From Deltaproteobacteria bacterium GWC2_55_46 (GTDB taxonomy: Bacteria > Desulfobacterota > GWC2-55-46): 64,000 nt of DNA. The notes beneath the pieces are model-generated. The model searched no databases, was not told the origin of the DNA, and was given only the letters and a program-made list of their open reading frames with translations. Made by a program: the position numbers and the translations under genes. This document shows positions 15,534-53,005 of this stretch, in pieces (position 1 is the stretch's first letter; every line of letters begins with the position of its first letter). Where the stretch lies: NCBI GenBank assembly GCA_001595385.3, contig LVEI03000001.1, positions 1,889,501 through 1,953,500 on the forward strand. The letters are read 5' to 3'.

Positions 15534-16475
15534 ATGTCCCAGGCCGCTACCATAATCGGGAGAGATACTGACCTTGTCTTTTACATAGTGACGGGTATCT
15601 GCGCGCTCCTTCTCTTTCTCATCCTCTTTTTCCTCCTCTACTTTGCCTTCAGGTACAGTAGGCAAAGGAACCCTCATTCAACCGACGTCGAGGGGAATCC
15701 CACCCTTGAGCTGTCCTTCCTTGGCGGTTCGCTCGCAATAGTACTCGTGATGTTCGTCCTCGGGTGGGACGGGTACAGAGCATTAAAGAGCGCGCCCCCC
15801 GCCAATGCCCTTGAGGTAAAGGCAAAAGGGCAGATGTGGGTATGGACTTTCGAGTACCCCAACGGTGCTCAGCACAACCAGCTCGTCCTCCCGGCAGGAG
15901 AGCCCGTTAAGATGAGCATGACCTCATTGGACGTCATCCACAGCTTCTATGTGCCTGCCTTCAGGGTGAAGCAGGACGCCCTTCCGGGGGTAGAGAGGAC
16001 GATCTGGTTCGTCCCTGATACCACTGGCACATACGACCTTTTCTGCGCCGAGTACTGCGGCACAGGCCATTCGGCCATGATAACAAAGGCGGTCGTGGTA
16101 AGCGGGGCTGATTTTACCGCGTGGCTCAAGGGAGAAAAGGAGATATCGCCCGCCGCCGCGCCAGCGGCGAAAGAGGCTGGGGCGCCCAAAGGGGAGGAGC
16201 TATATAAAAGCAAGGGCTGCAGCGCCTGCCATACAATCGACGGAGGAAAGTCGATCGGCCCGACCTTCAAGGGGCTCTTCGGGTCAAAGGTGAAGGTAGC
16301 GACAGGCGGGAAGGTCCGCGAGGTGGTGGTAGATGAGCAATACATAAGAAGGTCCGAGCTTGAGCCGAACGCGGATATAGTCGAAGGCTACCAGCCCGTG
16401 ATGCCTCCGCAGAAGGGGGTGCTGAAGGAGGAGGAGATAGAGGCGCTGATAGAGTTTATCAGGAGGCTGAAGTGA
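15534..16475 (+). CDS. coxB: Cytochrome c oxidase subunit II with fused cytochrome c (caa3 type)
   Basis: This 313-residue electron-entry subunit has two N-terminal helices (about 15-45 and 58-80) and a cupredoxin domain. The complete CuA site comprises His in DVIHSFYVP and Cys, Glu, Cys, His and Met in CAEYCGTGHSAM (about 170-182). An Ala/Pro linker joins it to a C-terminal cytochrome c with CSACH (about 229) and a probable axial Met in VMPPQKG (about 289). The fusion defines a caa3 oxidase taking electrons from soluble cytochrome c. GAGAGG precedes the ATG. It is last in the operon, whereas subunit II is usually first. Confidence 0.95.
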   Translation: MSQAATIIGRDTDLVFYIVTGICALLLFLILFFLLYFAFRYSRQRNPHSTDVEGNPTLELSFLGGSLAIVLVMFVLGWDGYRALKSAPPANALEVKAKGQMWVWTFEYPNGAQHNQLVLPAGEPVKMSMTSLDVIHSFYVPAFRVKQDALPGVERTIWFVPDTTGTYDLFCAEYCGTGHSAMITKAVVVSGADFTAWLKGEKEISPAAAPAAKEAGAPKGEELYKSKGCSACHTIDGGKSIGPTFKGLFGSKVKVATGGKVREVVVDEQYIRRSELEPNADIVEGYQPVMPPQKGVLKEEEIEALIEFIRRLK

Positions 16476-17595
16476 TGGGGGCTCTTCTTCTTTCGATGAG
16501 CCTCTTCCGCAGTTCCATCCCCGGCTTTTCTATAAGCCTGTAAAGGCCTGCCGAGATACAAAAGACAGCGCCAAAGAATAACGGGAATATAAGAAGGAAG
16601 TTCGTAAGGCTGGAGGTATTTATCTTGAATAACTCCATCGCCGGCTTGAAGAGGACCGAAAGCACAAGGACGTGATAGAGATAGATGGTGTAGCTGTACT
16701 TCGCCACTGCCTCTGAGGCCTTTCTCAAGGGAAGGCCCATGTTGAGAGGGAAGACGGCCAGATAGAGTATCAGCATTCCGAAGCCGAGGCCGGCTAAGGT
16801 GAACTGGGCCACAGAGTTAAAGAGGCTCTCCGCAGGCTTGCCATAGGCGTATACCAGGCCGATAAAGAGGGCGGAAGAGGAGAGCATGAGGGTCCTACCC
16901 CATATTGAGAGCCTCTCAAGTCTCACCTTATGCCTTATGAATACATACGCCGCGAGCACCCCGAAGACGAGCATGTCGAGCCGGGTGTGGAAGGGGGTGC
17001 CTATCGACGCCCACCAGGATATACTGGGGTTGAAGATAAAGAACCTCAATATGAACTCGAAGGAAACGAGGATGACGAGCGACCTCAAAAGGGCTGCTCC
17101 GGACCTCCTCAGGAAAAGGACTATGAAAAAAGGCGCCAGGAGATAGAACTGTTCTTCGATGGCGAGCGACCAGTATATGCCGCCCTGCAGGTGGTCTGGG
17201 TTCAGGTAGTTCTGGACATAGAAAAGGTGATAGATGAAATCCCGGAACAGGACCCCATTTTCGAGGACGAACGAGCCGGAGGTGATGGAGGTGGCTACCA
17301 CGACTATGACGAGGGCGGAATAATAGGCCGGGAATATCCTGAAGAACCTCTTTATGTAGAAGCTCTTGAAGCTGAAAGCGCCAGACTGGTATTCCTCTAT
17401 TATCTGACCGCCGATAAGGAAGCCTGAAAGGACGAAGAAGAGGTCGACCCCATGCCAGCCGAAGGCGAAGAAGTGCTTGAAGGCCGAATCAGGAAGGTTT
17501 TGAAAGACCCTGTCATAGAAGTGCCTGAAGAGGACGAGGATGATCGCGGAAGCCCTCAGGAGATCCAGCTCAGGGTAGCGCTTTTTGAAAAGCAT
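16459..17595 (-). CDS. Acyltransferase 3 family membrane protein (OafA/YrhL-like)
   Basis: This 378-residue protein has about ten predicted helices and the family's N-terminal PELDLLRASAIILVLFRHF, with the presumed catalytic His in LFRHF. HGVDLFFVLSGFLIGG and YWSLAIEEQFYLLAP are also typical. Such enzymes O-acylate cell-surface sugars or lipids; the substrate cannot be told. It is convergent with coxB, and the two coding regions overlap by 17 bp at their 3' ends with no terminator between them. Confidence 0.9.
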   Translation of the reverse strand: MLFKKRYPELDLLRASAIILVLFRHFYDRVFQNLPDSAFKHFFAFGWHGVDLFFVLSGFLIGGQIIEEYQSGAFSFKSFYIKRFFRIFPAYYSALVIVVVATSITSGSFVLENGVLFRDFIYHLFYVQNYLNPDHLQGGIYWSLAIEEQFYLLAPFFIVLFLRRSGAALLRSLVILVSFEFILRFFIFNPSISWWASIGTPFHTRLDMLVFGVLAAYVFIRHKVRLERLSIWGRTLMLSSSALFIGLVYAYGKPAESLFNSVAQFTLAGLGFGMLILYLAVFPLNMGLPLRKASEAVAKYSYTIYLYHVLVLSVLFKPAMELFKINTSSLTNFLLIFPLFFGAVFCISAGLYRLIEKPGMELRKRLIERRRAPITSAS

Positions 17596-17821: not shown

Positions 17822-17850
17822 TTGACAAAAAAGGCCGTAGCGATTAGTAT
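17822..17850 (+). promoter_or_regulatory. Sigma70-type promoter of the riboswitch-serine operon
   Basis: A perfect TTGACA at 17822-17827 is followed by a 17-bp spacer and TAGTAT at 17845-17850, within an AT-rich run. A start near 17857 would put the whole ZTP aptamer in the 5' leader. Confidence 0.75.
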
Positions 17851-17869
17851 ATATTCCACTAAAAAATAG

Positions 17870-18000
17870 AATCCTCCGTTACTGACGGAATCAAGGTGGG
17901 GGACCACCGGGGAGCGGGGGACTATATCGGATCTGTCGACCGTCTGGGCACCGCGCATCCTCTTCTGAGGTTGTGTAAAAAGGCTCAGGCGGTTTTTTTT
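17870..18000 (+). promoter_or_regulatory. ZTP (pfl) riboswitch with overlapping terminator
   Basis: The leader contains the hallmarks of the pfl/ZTP aptamer. There is a first helix with CCGTTACTGACGG (17876-17888), a GGTGG...CCACC pairing, and the conserved ACCACCGGGGAGC (17903-17915). The downstream conserved element is CCGTCTGGGCA (17940-17950). That element can also pair with GGCTCAGGCGG (17982-17992), which is followed at once by T8, giving a rho-independent terminator that competes with the aptamer. Binding of ZMP/ZTP would favour read-through into the aminotransferase and serA genes. Identification is from the consensus as I remember it; a covariance search would settle it. Confidence 0.85.
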
Positions 18001-18143
18001 AGCAGAGGGTCCCAGGAAAAGAAGCGGAAAATCGAGGCGTTAAGGGGTCCTGCGCCACCTGACCTTCCCGTTTTTTGCGTTTGTAAAGGCAGTTAAATTT
18101 CAGGATTCTACGGTTCTCTTCAAATAACAGGAGGATTCTTTTT

Positions 18144-19289
18144 ATGAAAAAGAGGTACCTTTTAGCGCCGGGCCCGACACCGGTGCCCGAGTCAGCGCTC
18201 CTTGCGATGGCCCAGCCCATAATCCACCACAGGACCCCGCAGTTCTCCGAGATCTTTAAAGAGACGGCGGAGCTTCTAAGATACGTCTTTCAGACAAAGC
18301 AGGACGTCCTCATGCTCGCCGCCTCAGGCACCGGCGCGATGGAGGGGTCGATAACGAACCTCTTCTCCCCCGGCGACGAGGTCATCGTCGTAAACGGAGG
18401 AAAGTTCGGGGAGAGGTGGGGCAAGATCTCCGAGGCATACGGCCTCAAGGCCCACTGGATGGCCGTTGAATGGGGCAAGGCCGTTGACCCAGCCGCGGTT
18501 AAAAAGGCCCTCGATGAGAACCCGAAGATAAAGGCTGTGCTCGTCCAGGCATCCGAGACCTCTACCTGTGTAGCGCACCCGATAAAGGAGCTTGCCGCCC
18601 TTACCAAAGACAGGGAGTGCCTCCTTATAGTCGACGGCATCACCGGCGTCGGCGTCTTCGACCTGCCCATGGACGACTGGGGCATAGACGTGCTTGTATC
18701 GGGATCGCAGAAGGCCTTCATGCTCCCCCCGGGCCTCGCCTTCGTGGCTCTTAGCGAGAAGGCATGGAAGTTCCAGGAGACCGCAAAGTGCCCCAGGTTC
18801 TACTTCGATTACAAGAAGGAGAGGAAGAACCTCAAGGACAATACCTCGGCCTATACCCCGGCCGTATCCCTCATAACAGGCTTGAGGCAGGCCCTTCTCA
18901 TGATAAAGGAAGAGGGCCTGCAGAACACATTCGCCAGGCACGACAGGCTTGCCAGGGCCACCAGGGCGGCGGCGCTCGCCCTCGGCCTTAAGCTGCTCGC
19001 CCCTGAGTCCCCGTCAAACGCCGCGACCGGCATTTTCATGCCGGAGGGGGTAGATGGCGGTAAACTGGTCAAGTACCTGAGGGATGAGATGGGCGTCACC
19101 ATGGCCGGAGGCCAGGACCACCTGAAGGGCAAGGTCTTAAGGGTGGCGCACCTCGGCTATGTCGATACATTCGATACGATAACCGCTATCGCCTCCATTG
19201 AGATGGCGCTCAACAAGTTCGGCTGCAAGGCCCCCTACGGCAAGGGCGTTGCAGCGGCCCAGCAAATCCTCATGGAAGGGTACAAGTGA
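18144..19289 (+). CDS. Class V aminotransferase, probable phosphoserine or serine/alanine-glyoxylate type
   Basis: This 381-residue PLP enzyme has the class V fold: an N-terminal LLAPGPTPVP, a SGTGAMEG cofactor loop, VDGITGVGVFD with the PLP-binding Asp, and SGSQKAFM with the Schiff-base Lys near residue 191. Sequence alone resembles the alanine/serine-glyoxylate group. Because serA follows at once (gap 1 bp), a role as phosphoserine aminotransferase in serine synthesis is likely but inferred. AGGAGG lies nine bases before the ATG. A ZTP riboswitch controls the operon. Confidence 0.9.
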   Translation: MKKRYLLAPGPTPVPESALLAMAQPIIHHRTPQFSEIFKETAELLRYVFQTKQDVLMLAASGTGAMEGSITNLFSPGDEVIVVNGGKFGERWGKISEAYGLKAHWMAVEWGKAVDPAAVKKALDENPKIKAVLVQASETSTCVAHPIKELAALTKDRECLLIVDGITGVGVFDLPMDDWGIDVLVSGSQKAFMLPPGLAFVALSEKAWKFQETAKCPRFYFDYKKERKNLKDNTSAYTPAVSLITGLRQALLMIKEEGLQNTFARHDRLARATRAAALALGLKLLAPESPSNAATGIFMPEGVDGGKLVKYLRDEMGVTMAGGQDHLKGKVLRVAHLGYVDTFDTITAIASIEMALNKFGCKAPYGKGVAAAQQILMEGYK

Positions 19290-19290
19290 T

Positions 19291-20874
19291 ATGAAGGTAC
19301 TCATAAGCGACAGCATGTCCTCAAAAGCGGTCGAGATCCTCAAGGGGACCCCGGGCCTCGACGTCGACGTTATAACCGGGCTCAAGCCCGATGAGCTCAA
19401 GGCAAAGATAAAGGACTACCACGGCCTCGTCGTAAGGAGCGCCACAAAGGCGACCGCCGATATACTGGATGCCGCCGAGAACCTGAAGGTCATAGGCAGG
19501 GCCGGCACCGGGGTCGACAACATCGACACCGTAGCCGCCACCAAAAAGGGCATTGTCGTCATGAACACGCCAGGCGGCAACACCGTTACGACCGCCGAGC
19601 ACGCGATAGCCATGCTGGTGGCCCTCGCCAGGAAGATCCCCCAGGCGACCGCCTCGATGAGGCGGGGAGAGTGGGAGAAGAAGAAGTTCGAGGGTACCGA
19701 GATGACCGGGAAGACACTCGGCATCCTGGGCGTCGGCAACATCGGAAGCGTTGTCGCCAACAGGGCAATGGGCCTCAAGATGAACGTCATAGCCTACGAC
19801 CCGTTCATATCAGGGGAGGCGGCAGACAAGCTCGGCTTGACCCTTGTCACGATGGACGAGCTCTTCAGGAGGAGCGATTTCATCTCCATCCACGTGCCCC
19901 TTACCAACGAGACCAGGGGCATCGTAAACGCCGAAGCCTTCAAGAAGATGAAGAAGGGCGTTAAGCTTATAAACTGCGCCAGGGGCGGCATAGTAAACGA
20001 AAAGGACCTGGCCGAGGCGATAAAGGAGAAGATAGTATCGGGCGCGGCCCTCGACGTCTTCGAAAAGGAGCCGACGACCGCCGATAACCCGCTCCTTCAG
20101 ATGGAAGAGGTGATCTTTACGCCGCACCTCGGCGCCTCCACCCACGAGGCCCAGGAGAACGTCGCCATCGCCATAGCCGAGCAGATGGTCGACTACCTCG
20201 TGAACGGCACCATAAGGAACGCCGTGAACGTGCCTTCCATCCCGGCCGAGCTGCTTTCGGCCCTCGGGCCGTATATCTCTCTCGGAGAGAAGCTCGGGAG
20301 CTTCCAGGGGCAGATCTTGAAGGGCGGCATAGAAGAGGTAACGGTCGAGTACAGCGGGGACGTGGTCAACTACGACGTGGCCCCGATCACCATAGGCTGC
20401 TTGAAGGGCCTTCTGGACCAGGTCCTCGACATGTACGTGAACTTCGTCAATGCCCCGTTCGTCGCCAAGGAAAGGGGCATAAAGGTCGTCGAGATAAAGA
20501 GCTCGAGGGCAACCGACTTCGCAAGCTCCATAACCATAAAGGTAAGGACCAAGGACGAGGAGAATATCGTCGAGGGCGCGCTCTTCGGGAAGAAGGAGCC
20601 CAGGATAGTGAGGATAGACAAGTTCCTCCTCGACGCCGTGCCCGAAGGCTACCTCATCCTCCTTCAGAACGAGGACAAGCCCGGTGTCATCGGTAATGTC
20701 GGTACGCTCCTGGCGGCAAACAACATAAACGTGGCGAGGCTTCACCTCGGGCGTTCGGCTGCCGGTGGCGAGGCTGTCTCTGTCTGGAGCGTCGATACCC
20801 CGCCCGCCAAGGGGCTCATAGAACGGATACTGAAGCTTCCGCACATGATATCCGCGAACGTGATAGAGCTCTAA
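19291..20874 (+). CDS. serA: D-3-phosphoglycerate dehydrogenase
   Basis: This enzyme oxidises 3-phosphoglycerate with NAD+, the first step of serine synthesis. At 527 residues it is the long form: substrate and NAD domains (GVGNIGSV near 147, catalytic Arg in CARGGIVNE, His in TPHLGAST), an allosteric substrate-binding domain (about 320-450), and a C-terminal ACT domain (about 455-527: LILLQNEDKPGVIGNVG). I chose ATG 19291, which follows the aminotransferase stop by 1 bp. A terminator follows. Confidence 0.95.
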   Translation: MKVLISDSMSSKAVEILKGTPGLDVDVITGLKPDELKAKIKDYHGLVVRSATKATADILDAAENLKVIGRAGTGVDNIDTVAATKKGIVVMNTPGGNTVTTAEHAIAMLVALARKIPQATASMRRGEWEKKKFEGTEMTGKTLGILGVGNIGSVVANRAMGLKMNVIAYDPFISGEAADKLGLTLVTMDELFRRSDFISIHVPLTNETRGIVNAEAFKKMKKGVKLINCARGGIVNEKDLAEAIKEKIVSGAALDVFEKEPTTADNPLLQMEEVIFTPHLGASTHEAQENVAIAIAEQMVDYLVNGTIRNAVNVPSIPAELLSALGPYISLGEKLGSFQGQILKGGIEEVTVEYSGDVVNYDVAPITIGCLKGLLDQVLDMYVNFVNAPFVAKERGIKVVEIKSSRATDFASSITIKVRTKDEENIVEGALFGKKEPRIVRIDKFLLDAVPEGYLILLQNEDKPGVIGNVGTLLAANNINVARLHLGRSAAGGEAVSVWSVDTPPAKGLIERILKLPHMISANVIEL

Positions 20875-20931
20875 CAAAATCTGCGCTCGGCAACTTGCTA
20901 AAAGCAATCAGAAAAAATTATAGACCACCGG

Positions 20932-20967
20932 ACAAAGCCGTGTTATGTTAGCGTAACACGGCTTTGT
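20932..20967 (+). terminator. Terminator after serA
   Basis: A perfect 14-bp inverted repeat pairs ACAAAGCCGTGTTA (20932-20945) with its complement at 20954-20967. A T-rich stretch follows. It separates the serine operon from hisZ. Confidence 0.8.
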
Positions 20968-21092
20968 TTCGTGCTTTTTCCATATGATAGGTTCCAGGAT
21001 GAGTACTCCTCATTCATCAAACGGCGGGAATCGTCTCGCATATGGTTTTTAAAGCAGTCTGAACTAACTGGATTTCAAGCGTATTTCTAATA

Positions 21093-22100
21093 ATGATAGG
21101 TTCCCCTACAATATCCCTCCCGCAGGGCGTAAGAGACATACTGCCTGAAGAGGCCGAGAGGATCGGCGCCGTCGAATCCGGCATCCTTTCCGTATTCTCG
21201 AAATACGGTTTCAGGAAGATAATCACCCCGCTCCTTGAGTACGTTGACGTGCTCTCCCTCGGCGTGGGGGGCGATCTCAGGGACAGGGTCATAAAGTTCA
21301 TCGACCCTTCGACAGGCCGCGTCATAGCCATAAGGCCCGACATCACCCCGCAGATAGCCAGGGTCGTAGCCACCAGGATGAGGGACCACGCCCTTCCCCT
21401 CAAGCTCTGCTACAACGAAAACGTCATCAGGTACATCGAGCCAAGGGACGGCAAAAGCAGCGAGGTCCTGCAGATAGGCGCCGAGCATATCTCCGCCGGG
21501 GCCAGCCCGGAGGCGGACGCCCATATGATAATAATGGCTGTCGAGGCGCTCGGGGCGGCCGGACTCAAGGACTTCAAGATCGACATCGGGGACGTGGGCT
21601 TCCTGAGGAATATCCTCGCAAGCCACTTTGACGAGGGCCTTCGTAAGACCGTGCAGGGGATGCTTGAGAAGAAGGACTCCTCCGGGCTTACGTCGTTCCT
21701 TAACGGCATGGACAGCATAAAGCCCGAGGAAAAAGAGCTTCTTATAAACCTCACCACCTTCTATGGCGAAGAGGAGGTCATTGAAAAGGCCGCTTCGCTC
21801 ACAAAGGATAAGGCCGCCCTCGCCTCTCTCGAATACCTCTCGAAGGTGATAGAGATAATCGCCGCGAAGGGGCTCAAGGAATGGATAACCATCGACCTCG
21901 GCGAGGTGAGGGGTTTCGATTACTATACCGGCATAATATTCGAGGGCTTCGCTTCCGGCATCGGAAAGCCGATCCTCTCCGGCGGCAGGTACGATAACCT
22001 GCTTGAGAGGTACGGCTACCCGTGCGCGGCAACCGGCTTCGCCTTTGACGTCGAGCACCTTGCCGCCGCCATCGGGATGCGCTCCGGCAGGAAAAGTTAA
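21093..22100 (+). CDS. hisZ: ATP phosphoribosyltransferase regulatory subunit HisZ
   Basis: This HisRS-like protein has no tRNA-charging role but is required by short-form HisG for the first step of histidine synthesis. Its 335 residues show the class II synthetase core (LPQGVRDILPEEAERI, RPDITPQIARVVATR, FDYYTGIIFEGF, GGRYDNLLERYG) and lack an anticodon-binding domain. The partner hisG (219 residues) is about 16 kb away in this window. I see no good Shine-Dalgarno before ATG 21093, and an in-frame stop at 21060 rules out a longer form. purA follows by 26 bp. Confidence 0.93.
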   Translation: MIGSPTISLPQGVRDILPEEAERIGAVESGILSVFSKYGFRKIITPLLEYVDVLSLGVGGDLRDRVIKFIDPSTGRVIAIRPDITPQIARVVATRMRDHALPLKLCYNENVIRYIEPRDGKSSEVLQIGAEHISAGASPEADAHMIIMAVEALGAAGLKDFKIDIGDVGFLRNILASHFDEGLRKTVQGMLEKKDSSGLTSFLNGMDSIKPEEKELLINLTTFYGEEEVIEKAASLTKDKAALASLEYLSKVIEIIAAKGLKEWITIDLGEVRGFDYYTGIIFEGFASGIGKPILSGGRYDNLLERYGYPCAATGFAFDVEHLAAAIGMRSGRKS

Positions 22101-22126: not shown

Positions 22127-23419
<1,293 letters not shown>

Positions 23420-48619: not shown

Positions 48620-48679
48620 CCTGCCCTGGGCGATTTTTCTTGACGGGGGCGGAGCAAAACTGATAGCCTTACTCAAAAC

Positions 48680-48850
48680 TGATGGCGCAGGTGCCCGCGA
48701 AGGCGGGCTAAAAGGGAATTCCCGTAAAACCGGGAGCTGCCCCGCAACTGTGTGCGGCGACGAGATCTTGTAGACCCACTGGCTTAACGGCCGGGAAGGA
48801 CAAGACAGTAGGATGACCCGCATAGCCAGGAGACCTGCCCGCGCCTGAAG
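48680..48850 (+). promoter_or_regulatory. Cobalamin riboswitch
   Basis: The AdoCbl aptamer hallmarks are present in order. They are GCAGGTGCCCGCGAAGG, CTAAAAGGGAA, a short hairpin, GCTGCCCCGCAACTGT, CCACTGG..CGGCCGGGAAGG, and the B12 box AGCCAGGAGACCTGCC (48824-48839). The closing helix pairs GGCGCAGGT with the sequence after the box. It controls the cobamide operon that starts 110 bp downstream. Confidence 0.95.
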
Positions 48851-48909
48851 CAGACCTTTCGAGGGAGAAGGTCGGCGGTCGCCGTTTCCGGCGCTTTGGC
48901 TGTCCGCAG

Positions 48910-48958: not shown

Positions 48959-49486
48959 GTGAAAGAAGGACTTGTGCATATCTACACCGGCGAAGGCAAA
49001 GGGAAGACTACCGCCTCCGTGGGCCTGAGCGTCCGGGCCGCAGGCCAGGGCAGGAAGGTGCTCTTCGTGCAATTCTTCAAGGAAGAGAGCGCCTCTTCAG
49101 GCGAGAAGGATAGCTTGAGGAAGCTCGGCGTTGACGTCGTCCGATCGGATGTGCGCCACCCTTTTTTCACCAGGGCCAAGACAGACCTCGAAGCGGTAAG
49201 GTCGTCGGTTGTGGGCACTTACGAGGCCGCCAAGGAAAAGCTGATGGAGGGCGGGTACGGGCTCGCGGTATTCGACGAGATAATGTCCGCCATAAACGGC
49301 GGATGGATAAAGATAGATGACGTGCTCGCCTTTCTTGATAAAAAGCCCGATTCATTGGAGGTGGCCTTGACGGGCAGGGGCGCGCCTGTAGAGCTTGTGC
49401 AGTCAGCCGACTACGTTACGGAGATGCTCAAGATAAAGCATCCCTTTGACCGTGGGGTGCCGGCGAGGAGGGGGATCGAGTACTGA
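48959..49486 (+). CDS. cobO: Corrinoid adenosyltransferase (CobA/CobO type)
   Basis: This 175-residue enzyme transfers adenosyl from ATP to cob(I)yrinate/cobalamin. The P-loop YTGEGKGKTTASVGL lies at the N-terminus, with VFDEIMSAINGGWI and ALTGRGAPVELV downstream. The start is GTG behind AAGGAGG. It is first in the riboswitch-controlled operon and overlaps cobU by 1 bp. Confidence 0.95.
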   Translation: MKEGLVHIYTGEGKGKTTASVGLSVRAAGQGRKVLFVQFFKEESASSGEKDSLRKLGVDVVRSDVRHPFFTRAKTDLEAVRSSVVGTYEAAKEKLMEGGYGLAVFDEIMSAINGGWIKIDDVLAFLDKKPDSLEVALTGRGAPVELVQSADYVTEMLKIKHPFDRGVPARRGIEY

Positions 49487-50004
49487 TGCCCGGCAGATTC
49501 TCGTTCATAATAGGCGGGGCGCGCTCTGGAAAAAGCGCCTTCTCGATAGAGCTCGCTTCCAGCCTTCCCGGCAGGAAGGTCTACCTTGCCACGGCAGAGG
49601 CGCTCGACTCCGAGATGGATGAGCGCATAAGGAAGCACAAGGAAGCAAGGGGAGACGGCTGGGAGACGATAGAGGAAGGGGTCGACCTCGCTGGCAGGCT
49701 GTCCGCCATAGGCGGTGGTTCGACGATAGTCATAGACTGCCTCACACTCTGGGTCACGAACCTCATGACAAAGGGGCTCACGGATACCGAAATACTTGAC
49801 GTGGCAAAGGCCTTCTCGCAGTGCTGCGCCTCGTCATTATCTGATGTGGTCGCCGTATCAAACGAGGTGGGCTTGGGGATAGTGCCTGAGAACAGGCTTG
49901 CGAGGAGGTTCAGGGACCTGGCAGGCTCGGTAAACCAGGCGGTAGCTTCAAGCGCCGATGAGGTCTGGTTTGTTGCCTCCGGCATACCGTTGAAGATGAA
50001 ATGA
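49486..50004 (+). CDS. cobU: Adenosylcobinamide kinase/guanylyltransferase
   Basis: This 172-residue enzyme phosphorylates and then activates adenosylcobinamide with GTP. The P-loop IIGGARSGKSAFSIEL is followed by MDERIRKHKEARGDGWETIEE, which holds the His that carries GMP. IDCLTLWVTNLM is also typical. It sits between cobO and the unassigned membrane-protein gene. Confidence 0.95.
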   Translation: MPGRFSFIIGGARSGKSAFSIELASSLPGRKVYLATAEALDSEMDERIRKHKEARGDGWETIEEGVDLAGRLSAIGGGSTIVIDCLTLWVTNLMTKGLTDTEILDVAKAFSQCCASSLSDVVAVSNEVGLGIVPENRLARRFRDLAGSVNQAVASSADEVWFVASGIPLKMK

Positions 50005-50062
50005 AGCCTGAATGTGAGTTTGTGTTTTTCGGCACTTAATAAATAAGAGTTCGGGAGAACTG

Positions 50063-50545
50063 ATGAAAAAAACGCGTATCTTTGCGGCGGTCTTCGCCGG
50101 CAACATGCTCTTTTTCTTTTTCTACGCCGGGGTGGCCTGGGCGCTTACATTCTTCAATATCACCCCTTACGGCCGGTTCGTCGCCGAGTTCTTCAAGGGG
50201 AGGACAAAAGAGGCGGCAAAGGAGCACATGGAGGCCAATAGAGAGCTCTTCGAGAGCATGCTTAAAGAGGCCTCCACGTTCGCCAACCTCGTCCTTACGC
50301 CCCTGGCGGGGTTTGTCATGGGCGTCCTGATCGGCGTCATCCTGTCAAAGAACAGAAGGTCAGCGATAGTCTGGTCTCTTCTGGCGGCAGCGCCCGTGTC
50401 GATAATCTTTCTCGTGAAATCAGGGGGCGGCCTCTCAAGCTTTATATATCTCGCCTTTTTCCTGGTCGTAACAGCCCTCGGCGGTCTTTTTGGCAGCTCG
50501 ATTGTAAAGAAAGGACCTGAGGAGGCATCAGATGTCAATGCTTGA
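50063..50545 (+). CDS. Unassigned membrane protein inside the cobamide operon
   Basis: This 160-residue protein has four predicted helices (about 6-30, 76-98, 103-122, 126-148). An extracytoplasmic or cytoplasmic helical loop ([28 protein letters not shown]) lies between the first two. No motif is recognised. It starts 58 bp after cobU and its end overlaps the cobT start by 14 bp, so it is a genuine operon member. A role in precursor transport or in anchoring the lower-ligand enzymes is only a guess. Confidence 0.8.
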
Positions 50546-51587
50546 AGATGTCATTAAAAAGATAAGGCCCGTTGACAATGGCCTTGTTGAGGCGGCCCAG
50601 CAGAGGCTCGATACGCTCACAAAGCCCAAGGACAGCCTCGGAAGGCTCGAGGAGTTCGCCAGGAGGATGGTCGCCATAACCGGAGAGCTGAGGCCGCGGA
50701 TAAAAAGGAAGGTGATATTCACCTTCGCCGGCGACCATGGTGTGGCCGACGAGGGTGTCTCCGCCTTTCCGAAGGAAGTGACCCGGCAGATGGTCCTGAA
50801 TTTTTTAAGGGGCGGGGCTGGCATAAACGTGCTCGCGCGCCACGCAGGGGCGGAGGTCGTTGTAGTCGATATCGGCGTGGAAACGGATTTCGACGACGCC
50901 CCCGGCCTTGTTAAAAGAAAGGTGGTCCGCGGCACAGGCAATATCCGCAAGGGCCCTGCCATGACCAGGGAAGAGGCTGTAAGGTGCGTTGAGGCCGGTA
51001 TTTCGATCGCTTCCGAGTATGCCGGGGGCGGGGTGATATTCGGGACCGGCGAGATGGGGATTGCCAACACGACCCCGTCGAGCGCGATGATCGCTGCCTT
51101 CTCCGGGAAAAAAGCGGAAGCTGTCACTGGCAGGGGCACAGGCATAGACGACGCCATCTTCTCGCACAAGGTGCAGGTGATAGAGGATGCCATAGCCGTA
51201 AACAAGCCCGACCGCGCGGACCCCATAGACGTGCTCGCAAAGCTCGGGGGCGCGGAGATAGCCGGCATAGCGGGTCTTATACTCGGGGCGGCCGCGAAGA
51301 GGGTGCCCGTGGTGATCGACGGCTTCATATCAACCGCAGGGGCGCTTGTGGCTTACGAGATAAAGCCCGAGGCGGCGGAGTATATGTTCGCGGCCCACAA
51401 GTCTGTAGAGAAGGGGCACGCGGTGATGCTCGAGAGGATGGGCTTGAGGCCCTTCGTCGACCTTGATCTCAGGCTCGGAGAGGGCACCGGCGCCGCGATA
51501 GGCATCTCGCTGGTCGAGGCCGCTCTCAGGATATATAATGAAATGGCTACCTTCGGGGACGCCGGGGTCTCTGAAAAGAATATCTAA
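50532..51587 (+). CDS. cobT: Nicotinate-nucleotide:dimethylbenzimidazole phosphoribosyltransferase
   Basis: This 351-residue enzyme activates the lower-ligand base to its ribotide. [39 protein letters not shown] and the C-terminal [10 protein letters not shown] with the catalytic Glu are present. AGGAGG lies upstream of ATG 50532. In this operon it would act on the base made by the ThiC-like enzyme. Confidence 0.96.
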
Positions 51588-51593
51588 ATCTGG

Positions 51594-52367
51594 ATGAAAA
51601 ATCAGATGAAAGGTTTCATACTCGCCCTCCAGTTCCTGACGGTCTTCCCTGTAAAAAAAGGGGTCGACGCCACTCCAGAAGAGCTTGGCAGGTCCATGGG
51701 CTGGTTCCCGGCTATCGGGGCGGTGCAGGGGCTTATCCTTGTAGCGGCGTACTTTATCCTTTCAACGCTCCTGCCTGAGAGCATAGTGGCGGGGCTGCTG
51801 CTCCTGATACTCGTCCTCACCAACGGAGGGCTTCACGTCGACGGCTTCGCCGATACGGTCGACGGCCTTGCGGGAGGCAAAACAGCACAGGAGAGGCTCC
51901 GCATAATGCGGGACAGCCGCATAGGGGCCGTTGGGGTGCTCTTTGTCTTCTTCCTCCTCCTCATCAAATTCCTCGCCTTGCAGGAGCTGCCGGCGGAAGT
52001 CAAGCCTCAGGCTGTCTTTCTCTTCCCGGTGCTCGGCAGGTGGGCGATGGTCCCTCTGGCGTATCTTGCGCCTTACGCGAGGGCTACAGGCGGGCTCGGG
52101 GCCGCCTTCTCCGGCAACTCAAAGGGGGTGCTCCTTAAGGCGACGGTTTCTACGGCGCTTATAATGGCCTTGCTCCTTGGCCTGCTCTCTTTAGTGATAC
52201 TCGCCGCGCTCTGGATTATAATCTATATGTCGGCGGGGTACTTTAAAAGGAAGATAGGCGGCGCCACAGGCGACGTCTTCGGCTTTCACAGCGAGATAGC
52301 GGAAGTCCTTTTCCTTCTATCGGTGCTCGCGATGACCAATATGCTTTCTGCGGACCTGGAGGAATAG
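51594..52367 (+). CDS. cobS: Adenosylcobinamide-GDP ribazoletransferase (cobalamin synthase)
   Basis: This 257-residue integral membrane enzyme joins the activated corrinoid to the nucleotide loop. GLHVDGFADTVDGLAGGK with acidic metal-binding residues and MRDSRIGAVGVLFVF are family signatures; ATGDVFGFHSEIAEVLFLL is near the end. About six helices are predicted. It lies 6 bp after cobT. Confidence 0.95.
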   Translation: MKNQMKGFILALQFLTVFPVKKGVDATPEELGRSMGWFPAIGAVQGLILVAAYFILSTLLPESIVAGLLLLILVLTNGGLHVDGFADTVDGLAGGKTAQERLRIMRDSRIGAVGVLFVFFLLLIKFLALQELPAEVKPQAVFLFPVLGRWAMVPLAYLAPYARATGGLGAAFSGNSKGVLLKATVSTALIMALLLGLLSLVILAALWIIIYMSAGYFKRKIGGATGDVFGFHSEIAEVLFLLSVLAMTNMLSADLEE

Positions 52368-52369
52368 AA

Positions 52370-53005
52370 ATGCGCGCTACAAGGCTTTACCTCATAAGGC
52401 ACGGACAGGTGGTAAACCACCACGAGTACCGCTACAACGGCCACTTCGACGTTGACATAACAGGCGTAGGTGTCGAGCAGATGAACAGGGTCTCGGAGAC
52501 CCTTGCCAGCCAGCCCATAAAGGCCGTCTATTCGAGCGACCTTCAGAGGGCGGTGAAGGGCGCGCGCATAATCGGTACGCTCCTGGGGATTCAGCCCACG
52601 ATGGTCCACGCCCTGAGGGAATTGAACCTCGGCAGGTGGGAGGGGCTTACCAGGGAAGAGGCCATAGCCAGGTTCCCTGAGGAGTCGGATTTCAGCTTCA
52701 AGGACCTCGCCACGAGCAAGGTCAAGGAAGGCGAGAGCATCGTCGAGCTCAGGTCAAGGGTAATGCCGGCGCTCTCCGGGATACTTGAGCGGCACAAGCA
52801 TGAGTCGGTCTGCGTGGTAGCGCACGGCGGGGTCAACAGGGTCATATTGAGCGAGGCCATGGGGCTGCCGCTCGAGAAGTTTTTCAGGATCGAGCAGGAC
52901 TTCGGCTGCCTTAACGTAATAGATTACCTCGACGACGGCATGAAGGTGGTAAAGCTGCTGAACGGCGGGCCGAACCAGGAAATGCGCCCGACGGAGATAT
53001 ATTAG
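52370..53005 (+). CDS. cobC: Alpha-ribazole phosphatase-like histidine phosphatase
   Basis: This 211-residue protein has the histidine phosphatase motif LYLIRHGQVVNHHEYRYNG and the second His in VCVVAHGGVNRVI. In a cobamide operon it most likely removes phosphate from alpha-ribazole phosphate. It lies 2 bp after cobS. Confidence 0.88.
   Translation: MRATRLYLIRHGQVVNHHEYRYNGHFDVDITGVGVEQMNRVSETLASQPIKAVYSSDLQRAVKGARIIGTLLGIQPTMVHALRELNLGRWEGLTREEAIARFPEESDFSFKDLATSKVKEGESIVELRSRVMPALSGILERHKHESVCVVAHGGVNRVILSEAMGLPLEKFFRIEQDFGCLNVIDYLDDGMKVVKLLNGGPNQEMRPTEIY

Follow-up and report, generated by a model that had tools for sequence, protein, structure and literature searches.

A ZMP/ZTP riboswitch upstream of an aminotransferase-serA operon, and a putative CO2-to-serine regulon, in Deltaproteobacteria bacterium GWC2_55_46

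Introduction

The ZMP/ZTP (pfl) riboswitches are an already known RNA class (PMC2864571, PMC7266159), and an ON mechanism has been established for them by experiment, in a design equal to the one described below (PMC7337938). A ZTP riboswitch upstream of serA is also known, in the tandem ZTP/glycine riboswitches of Bacillus and Oceanobacillus (PMC9481103). Here we analyse a stretch of 64,000 nucleotides of Deltaproteobacteria bacterium GWC2_55_46 (GTDB lineage Bacteria; Desulfobacterota; GWC2-55-46), corresponding to positions 1,889,501 to 1,953,500 of the forward strand of contig LVEI03000001.1 and called the window throughout, in which an element of this class precedes an aminotransferase of the AGT type and serA. 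In our opinion it is very probably a canonical transcriptional ON-type ZTP riboswitch acting on AGT-serA, within a three-part regulon leading from CO2 to serine. Considering the ZTP-serA precedent, the window element counts as an ordinary member of its class, and the regulon, more than the element, is the part worth following.

Results

The Rfam scan of the whole window gave a match to RF01750 (ZMP/ZTP riboswitch) with 60.2 bits and an E value of 2.9e-7, the gathering score being 39 bits, and the match was full length (model positions 1-86 of 86). The element is a genuine ZMP/ZTP riboswitch. The initial annotation had recognised the pfl motif from the sequence and had named the Rfam covariance model as its check; both the motif and the check held. 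It had placed the element at 17822-18000, where the riboswitch is indeed present, but the aptamer begins at about 17868 and positions 17822-17867 correspond to the promoter and the 5′ leader. No second riboswitch (glycine, tetrahydrofolate (THF), or T-box) was detected in the leader by the scan of the window, whose only matches were RF01750 and a distant cobalamin riboswitch. The parts of the aptamer are the following:

17868-17956, + strand: ZMP/ZTP (pfl) riboswitch aptamer, P1-P2-P3 with pseudoknot (RF01750 match)
17885-17888, + strand: 5′ strand of the pseudoknot (J1/2), ACGG, pairing with 17940-17943 (covaries with out-of-class sequences)
17940-17943, + strand: 3′ strand of the pseudoknot (P3 loop), CCGT, within CCGTCTGGGC (conservation of CCGTCTGGG, covariation)

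Switches were present in 43 of the 59 relatives examined. The 93 loci from these relatives and the three from this genome make up 96 in-class switches, which were classified by their downstream DNA. All of them contain CCGTCTGGG, most score 53-68 bits against the full-length model, and P1 still pairs in them, with sequence changes in both of its strands. The pseudoknot covaries: in-class switches have ACGG:CCGU, and most of those outside the class have GCGA:UCGC or GCGU:ACGC. The motif TTACTGACGG, which the initial annotation had listed among the conserved elements, is one pseudoknot base off the family consensus (ACUGGCGG), and the partner strand compensates for it, from CGCC to CGUC. Taking into account the E value, the covariation, and the same operon position in 20 loci with a promoter and an overlapping terminator, the possibility that the match is due to chance, or is a degenerate one without regulatory function, is negligible. 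A chance association with the downstream genes was also considered, and it was rejected by the conservation in the 43 relatives and in this genome.

The aptamer is flanked by the elements expected from transcriptional control:

17822-17850, + strand: sigma-70-type promoter, -35 TTGACA at 17822-17827, 17-bp spacer, -10 TAGTAT at 17845-17850
17938-18000, + strand: predicted intrinsic terminator, 5′ strand 17938-17949, 3′ strand 17983-17994, T8 at 17993-18000 (folding)
18129-18134, + strand: ribosome-binding site AGGAGG

The promoter matches the consensus at 10 of 12 positions, in agreement with the perfect -35 and good -10 of the initial annotation, and promoters with at least 9 of 12 matches were found in 96% of the 96 homologous leaders and in 17% of shuffles. 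The alternative pairing ending in T8, also proposed from the start, was confirmed as a stem of 12 bp; the 64-nt segment has a folding energy of -31.9 kcal/mol (z = -5.58), and none of 200 shuffles was equally stable. The 5′ strand of the terminator is the aptamer's own P3/pseudoknot strand, so that aptamer and terminator would be mutually exclusive and an ON switch is predicted. The experimentally studied homologue has the same design (PMC7337938), from which we infer the direction of control in the cell; the ligand would be, by analogy, the one of the class. A terminator overlapping P3 was found in 93 of the 96 in-class leaders, and shuffled downstream sequences yielded such an overlap in 77 of 545 cases (in-class leaders plus 13 out-of-class leaders). 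The remaining three leaders are one at a contig end and two with long-insert aptamers. The latter, L124 and L126, belong to pyrophosphatase-transhydrogenase operons; the Rfam match ends before P3 because of the long inserts that precede it, and CCGTCTGGGC lies further downstream.

According to the proposed mechanism, RNA polymerase would start about ten bases upstream of the aptamer. With high ZMP/ZTP, when 10-formyl-THF is short, the ligand would lock P3 and the pseudoknot, CCGTCTGGGC would be unavailable to the terminator, and the AGT-serA operon would be transcribed. With low ZMP/ZTP, CCGTCTGGGC would pair with GCTCAGGCGG and transcription would end at T8. The product of the operon, serine, would act as one-carbon donor via GlyA.

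Two further switches were located in the genome, which has exactly three RF01750 matches above the cut-off:

C1:266097-266185 (L004 8098-8186), + strand: second ZTP riboswitch, before icd-aclBA (RF01750)
C1:432057-432146 (L005 12058-12147), - strand: third ZTP riboswitch, before rnfCDGEAB (RF01750)

The first gene of the second switch encodes a monomeric NADP isocitrate dehydrogenase (IDH; TIGR00178, 1366 bits), followed by two subunits of ATP citrate lyase (Acl), the smaller one (435 aa) with the citrate-binding domain PF16114 and the larger one similar to citryl-CoA synthetase/lyase. The operon of the third switch is recognised by TIGR01945 (516 bits). The genome contains fhs, glyA, and purH, and none of the three switches is near them. 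While the serine operon fits one-carbon supply, the reductive tricarboxylic acid (TCA) and Rnf targets of the sister switches are linked to one-carbon and purine genes indirectly. Searches of the genome gave no match for RuBisCO or for CO-dehydrogenase/acetyl-CoA synthase. The genome has two oxoacid:ferredoxin oxidoreductase domains of the gamma type.

The same targets recur in the class. Among the 96 switches, 32 precede IDH (with or without Acl), 29 Rnf, 20 AGT-SerA, 2 Acl alone, 2 SucCD-Kor, 4 transhydrogenase (with or without ppa), 5 a CPA2-type cation:proton antiporter, and 1 a KUP-type potassium transporter, while 1 is at a contig end; SucCD-Kor, transhydrogenase, CPA2, and KUP were named by reading the translations and not by profile search. 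It follows that 95 of 96 are located before AGT-serA, reductive-TCA, Rnf, transhydrogenase, or cation-transporter genes. The CPA2 loci, all in one genus (L051, L085, L094, L098, and L100), and the KUP locus (L035) each have a ZTP switch with an overlapping terminator, and these transporters have no obvious one-carbon link.

These unusual targets would be explained if the ZTP fold had shifted its specificity in this class to another metabolite of carbon or energy status. Central carbon and electron transfer genes instead of purine or folate ones, with transporters among them, are consistent with this proposal. Nevertheless, the core is kept, including the P3-loop CTGGG[C/T] adjoining the ligand site (96/96), the full-length scores are high, and the canonical fhs and glyA switches of other members of the phylum have the same core, so we consider a shifted ligand very improbable.

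In the family, all 21 IDH genes whose start is on the contig have the switch. In the part of the class beyond the family, the switch accompanies about half of those IDH genes whose start is visible, and direct inspection of nine leaders with no listed switch revealed none. The AGT and IDH leaders of relatives with no listed switch gave none even at E values up to 5. In one IDH gene under a ZTP switch (L079, G001 C37:60146-62311) five in-frame stops were observed, which may reflect decay or an assembly error. In 69 of 79 cases an aptamer and its nearest neighbour share the target, and the neighbour is never from the same genome; therefore, the three kinds of switch are maintained separately. 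The named close relatives are metagenome-assembled genomes, among them GWA2_55_10, UBA5799, and H5_GWC, several of them from groundwater. PMC13386864 treats a Desulfobacterota class GWC2-55-46, to which this lineage would presumably belong. In the rest of the phylum the switch is a rare element, found in 25 of 395 sampled genomes with these relatives included, and the out-of-class switches precede glyA, fhs, a permease, or AGT-serA(-purA). A search of 14 loci with AGT homologues, some of them divergent loci of the class and the others from other phyla, found no ZTP switch.

The genes downstream of the window switch are these:

18144-19289, + strand: class-V aminotransferase (AGT/serine-glyoxylate type), probable phosphoserine aminotransferase (nearest homologues; no other serC-like locus found in the genome)
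19291-20874, + strand: serA, phosphoglycerate dehydrogenase (TIGR01327, 663.5 bits, cut-off 454)
20930-20969, + strand: probable intrinsic terminator ending the AGT-serA unit, 18-bp stem (hairpin)
21093-22100, + strand: hisZ, probably a separate unit past the terminator (TIGR00443, above cut-off)
22127-23419, + strand: purA, adenylosuccinate synthase (NF002223, above cut-off)

The aminotransferase-serA serine operon of the initial annotation is supported by a full serA, a class-V aminotransferase, and an arrangement kept in 20 loci. The closest sequence relatives of the aminotransferase are serine-glyoxylate and serine-pyruvate aminotransferases; it matches BhcA-type models below their cut-off and serC only weakly (22.9 bits). 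The whole-genome search for a canonical SerC found none, this weak match being the best. As the sole serC-like gene found in the genome, it is probably the enzyme that makes phosphoserine, and it is the best candidate for that step.

It could be argued that the switch reaches through serA into hisZ-purA, with purine synthesis as the main output and serine as a secondary one. The order AGT-serA-hisZ-purA is conserved wherever the contig is long enough, and in two out-of-class genomes (G249 and G403, loci L173 and L176) purA lies directly after ZTP-AGT-serA. However, the strong 18-bp hairpin terminator separates serA from hisZ here, and we judge this extended reach unlikely.

Regarding the neighbourhood, a divergent membrane acyltransferase-like gene (16459-17595, - strand) and the operon share the intergenic region that precedes the promoter. 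The cobalamin riboswitch (RF00174, 102.9 bits, 48672-48856, + strand) precedes apparent cobalamin synthesis genes (48959-53005) and is ordinary.

Discussion

An autotroph that takes all its carbon through the reductive TCA cycle obtains its one-carbon units by way of acetyl-CoA, pyruvate, 3-phosphoglycerate, and serine. Judging from its genes, this lineage presumably grows in an autotrophic manner. The regulon formed by AGT-serA, icd-aclBA, and rnfCDGEAB would then run from CO2 to serine, with the reductive-TCA enzymes first, low-potential electrons supplied by Rnf, and finally the conversion of 3-phosphoglycerate to serine. As for its metabolic purpose, which we infer from the anatomy of the regulon, a rise in ZMP/ZTP would signal shortage of 10-formyl-THF and the ON switches at the three operons would answer it.

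In a more general form, our judgement leans towards the view that in this uncultivated deltaproteobacterial class, which appears to fix CO2 through the reductive TCA cycle, ZMP/ZTP acts as a one-carbon alarmone with direct control over the enzymes of CO2 fixation, the electron supply by Rnf and transhydrogenase, and the serine branch. The enzymes in question would be isocitrate dehydrogenase and ATP citrate lyase, to which some members would add succinyl-CoA synthetase and 2-oxoglutarate:ferredoxin oxidoreductase.

Several observations weigh against the proposed scheme. Folded alone by plain secondary-structure prediction the aptamer is not unusually stable (z = -0.66), which is expected because standard folding cannot model a pseudoknotted RNA. 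In the family, next to the 20 AGT genes with the switch there are five with no detectable one, and in the class beyond the family none of the listed AGT genes adjoins a listed switch; therefore, the link with serine is not obligatory. Finally, the fhs of the genome offers a possible second one-carbon route if formate is available, so serine is not the only possible source.

If the general view is true, an intermediate of the purine pathway would signal the demand for carbon fixation in autotrophic growth. Provided that the sister switches act as proposed, the Z nucleotides would, in these organisms, exert direct control at the RNA level over CO2 fixation, the reduction of ferredoxin, and the supply of serine, beyond a folate/purine alarm, and the regulon offers a way to learn what ZTP signals in an autotroph. 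To our knowledge, neither the reductive TCA cycle nor the Rnf complex has been connected with any other riboswitch class. The literature search, in which the gene list of Kim et al. 2015 was not covered, found no earlier description of a ZTP switch at operons for the reductive TCA cycle, Rnf, or transhydrogenase.

By comparison with the transcriptional ON-switch of Thermosinus carboxydivorans (PMC7337938), the full-length aptamer, the pseudoknot, and the intrinsic terminator overlapping P3 are common to both. The difference with known RF01750 members is in the targets, which here are AGT-serA, IDH-ATP citrate lyase, and Rnf, and in the relatives also SucCD-Kor and transhydrogenase. The serC motif and the control by T-box(Ser) or glycine riboswitches share the target, serine synthesis, but they are other RNA classes with other ligands and were not found in this leader. 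The tandem of Bacillus and Oceanobacillus (PMC9481103) is likewise a ZTP ON-switch before serA, at the start of serine synthesis from 3-phosphoglycerate; unlike it, the present leader is single-input, with no glycine riboswitch, belongs to a different phylum, and has an AGT-type aminotransferase before serA.
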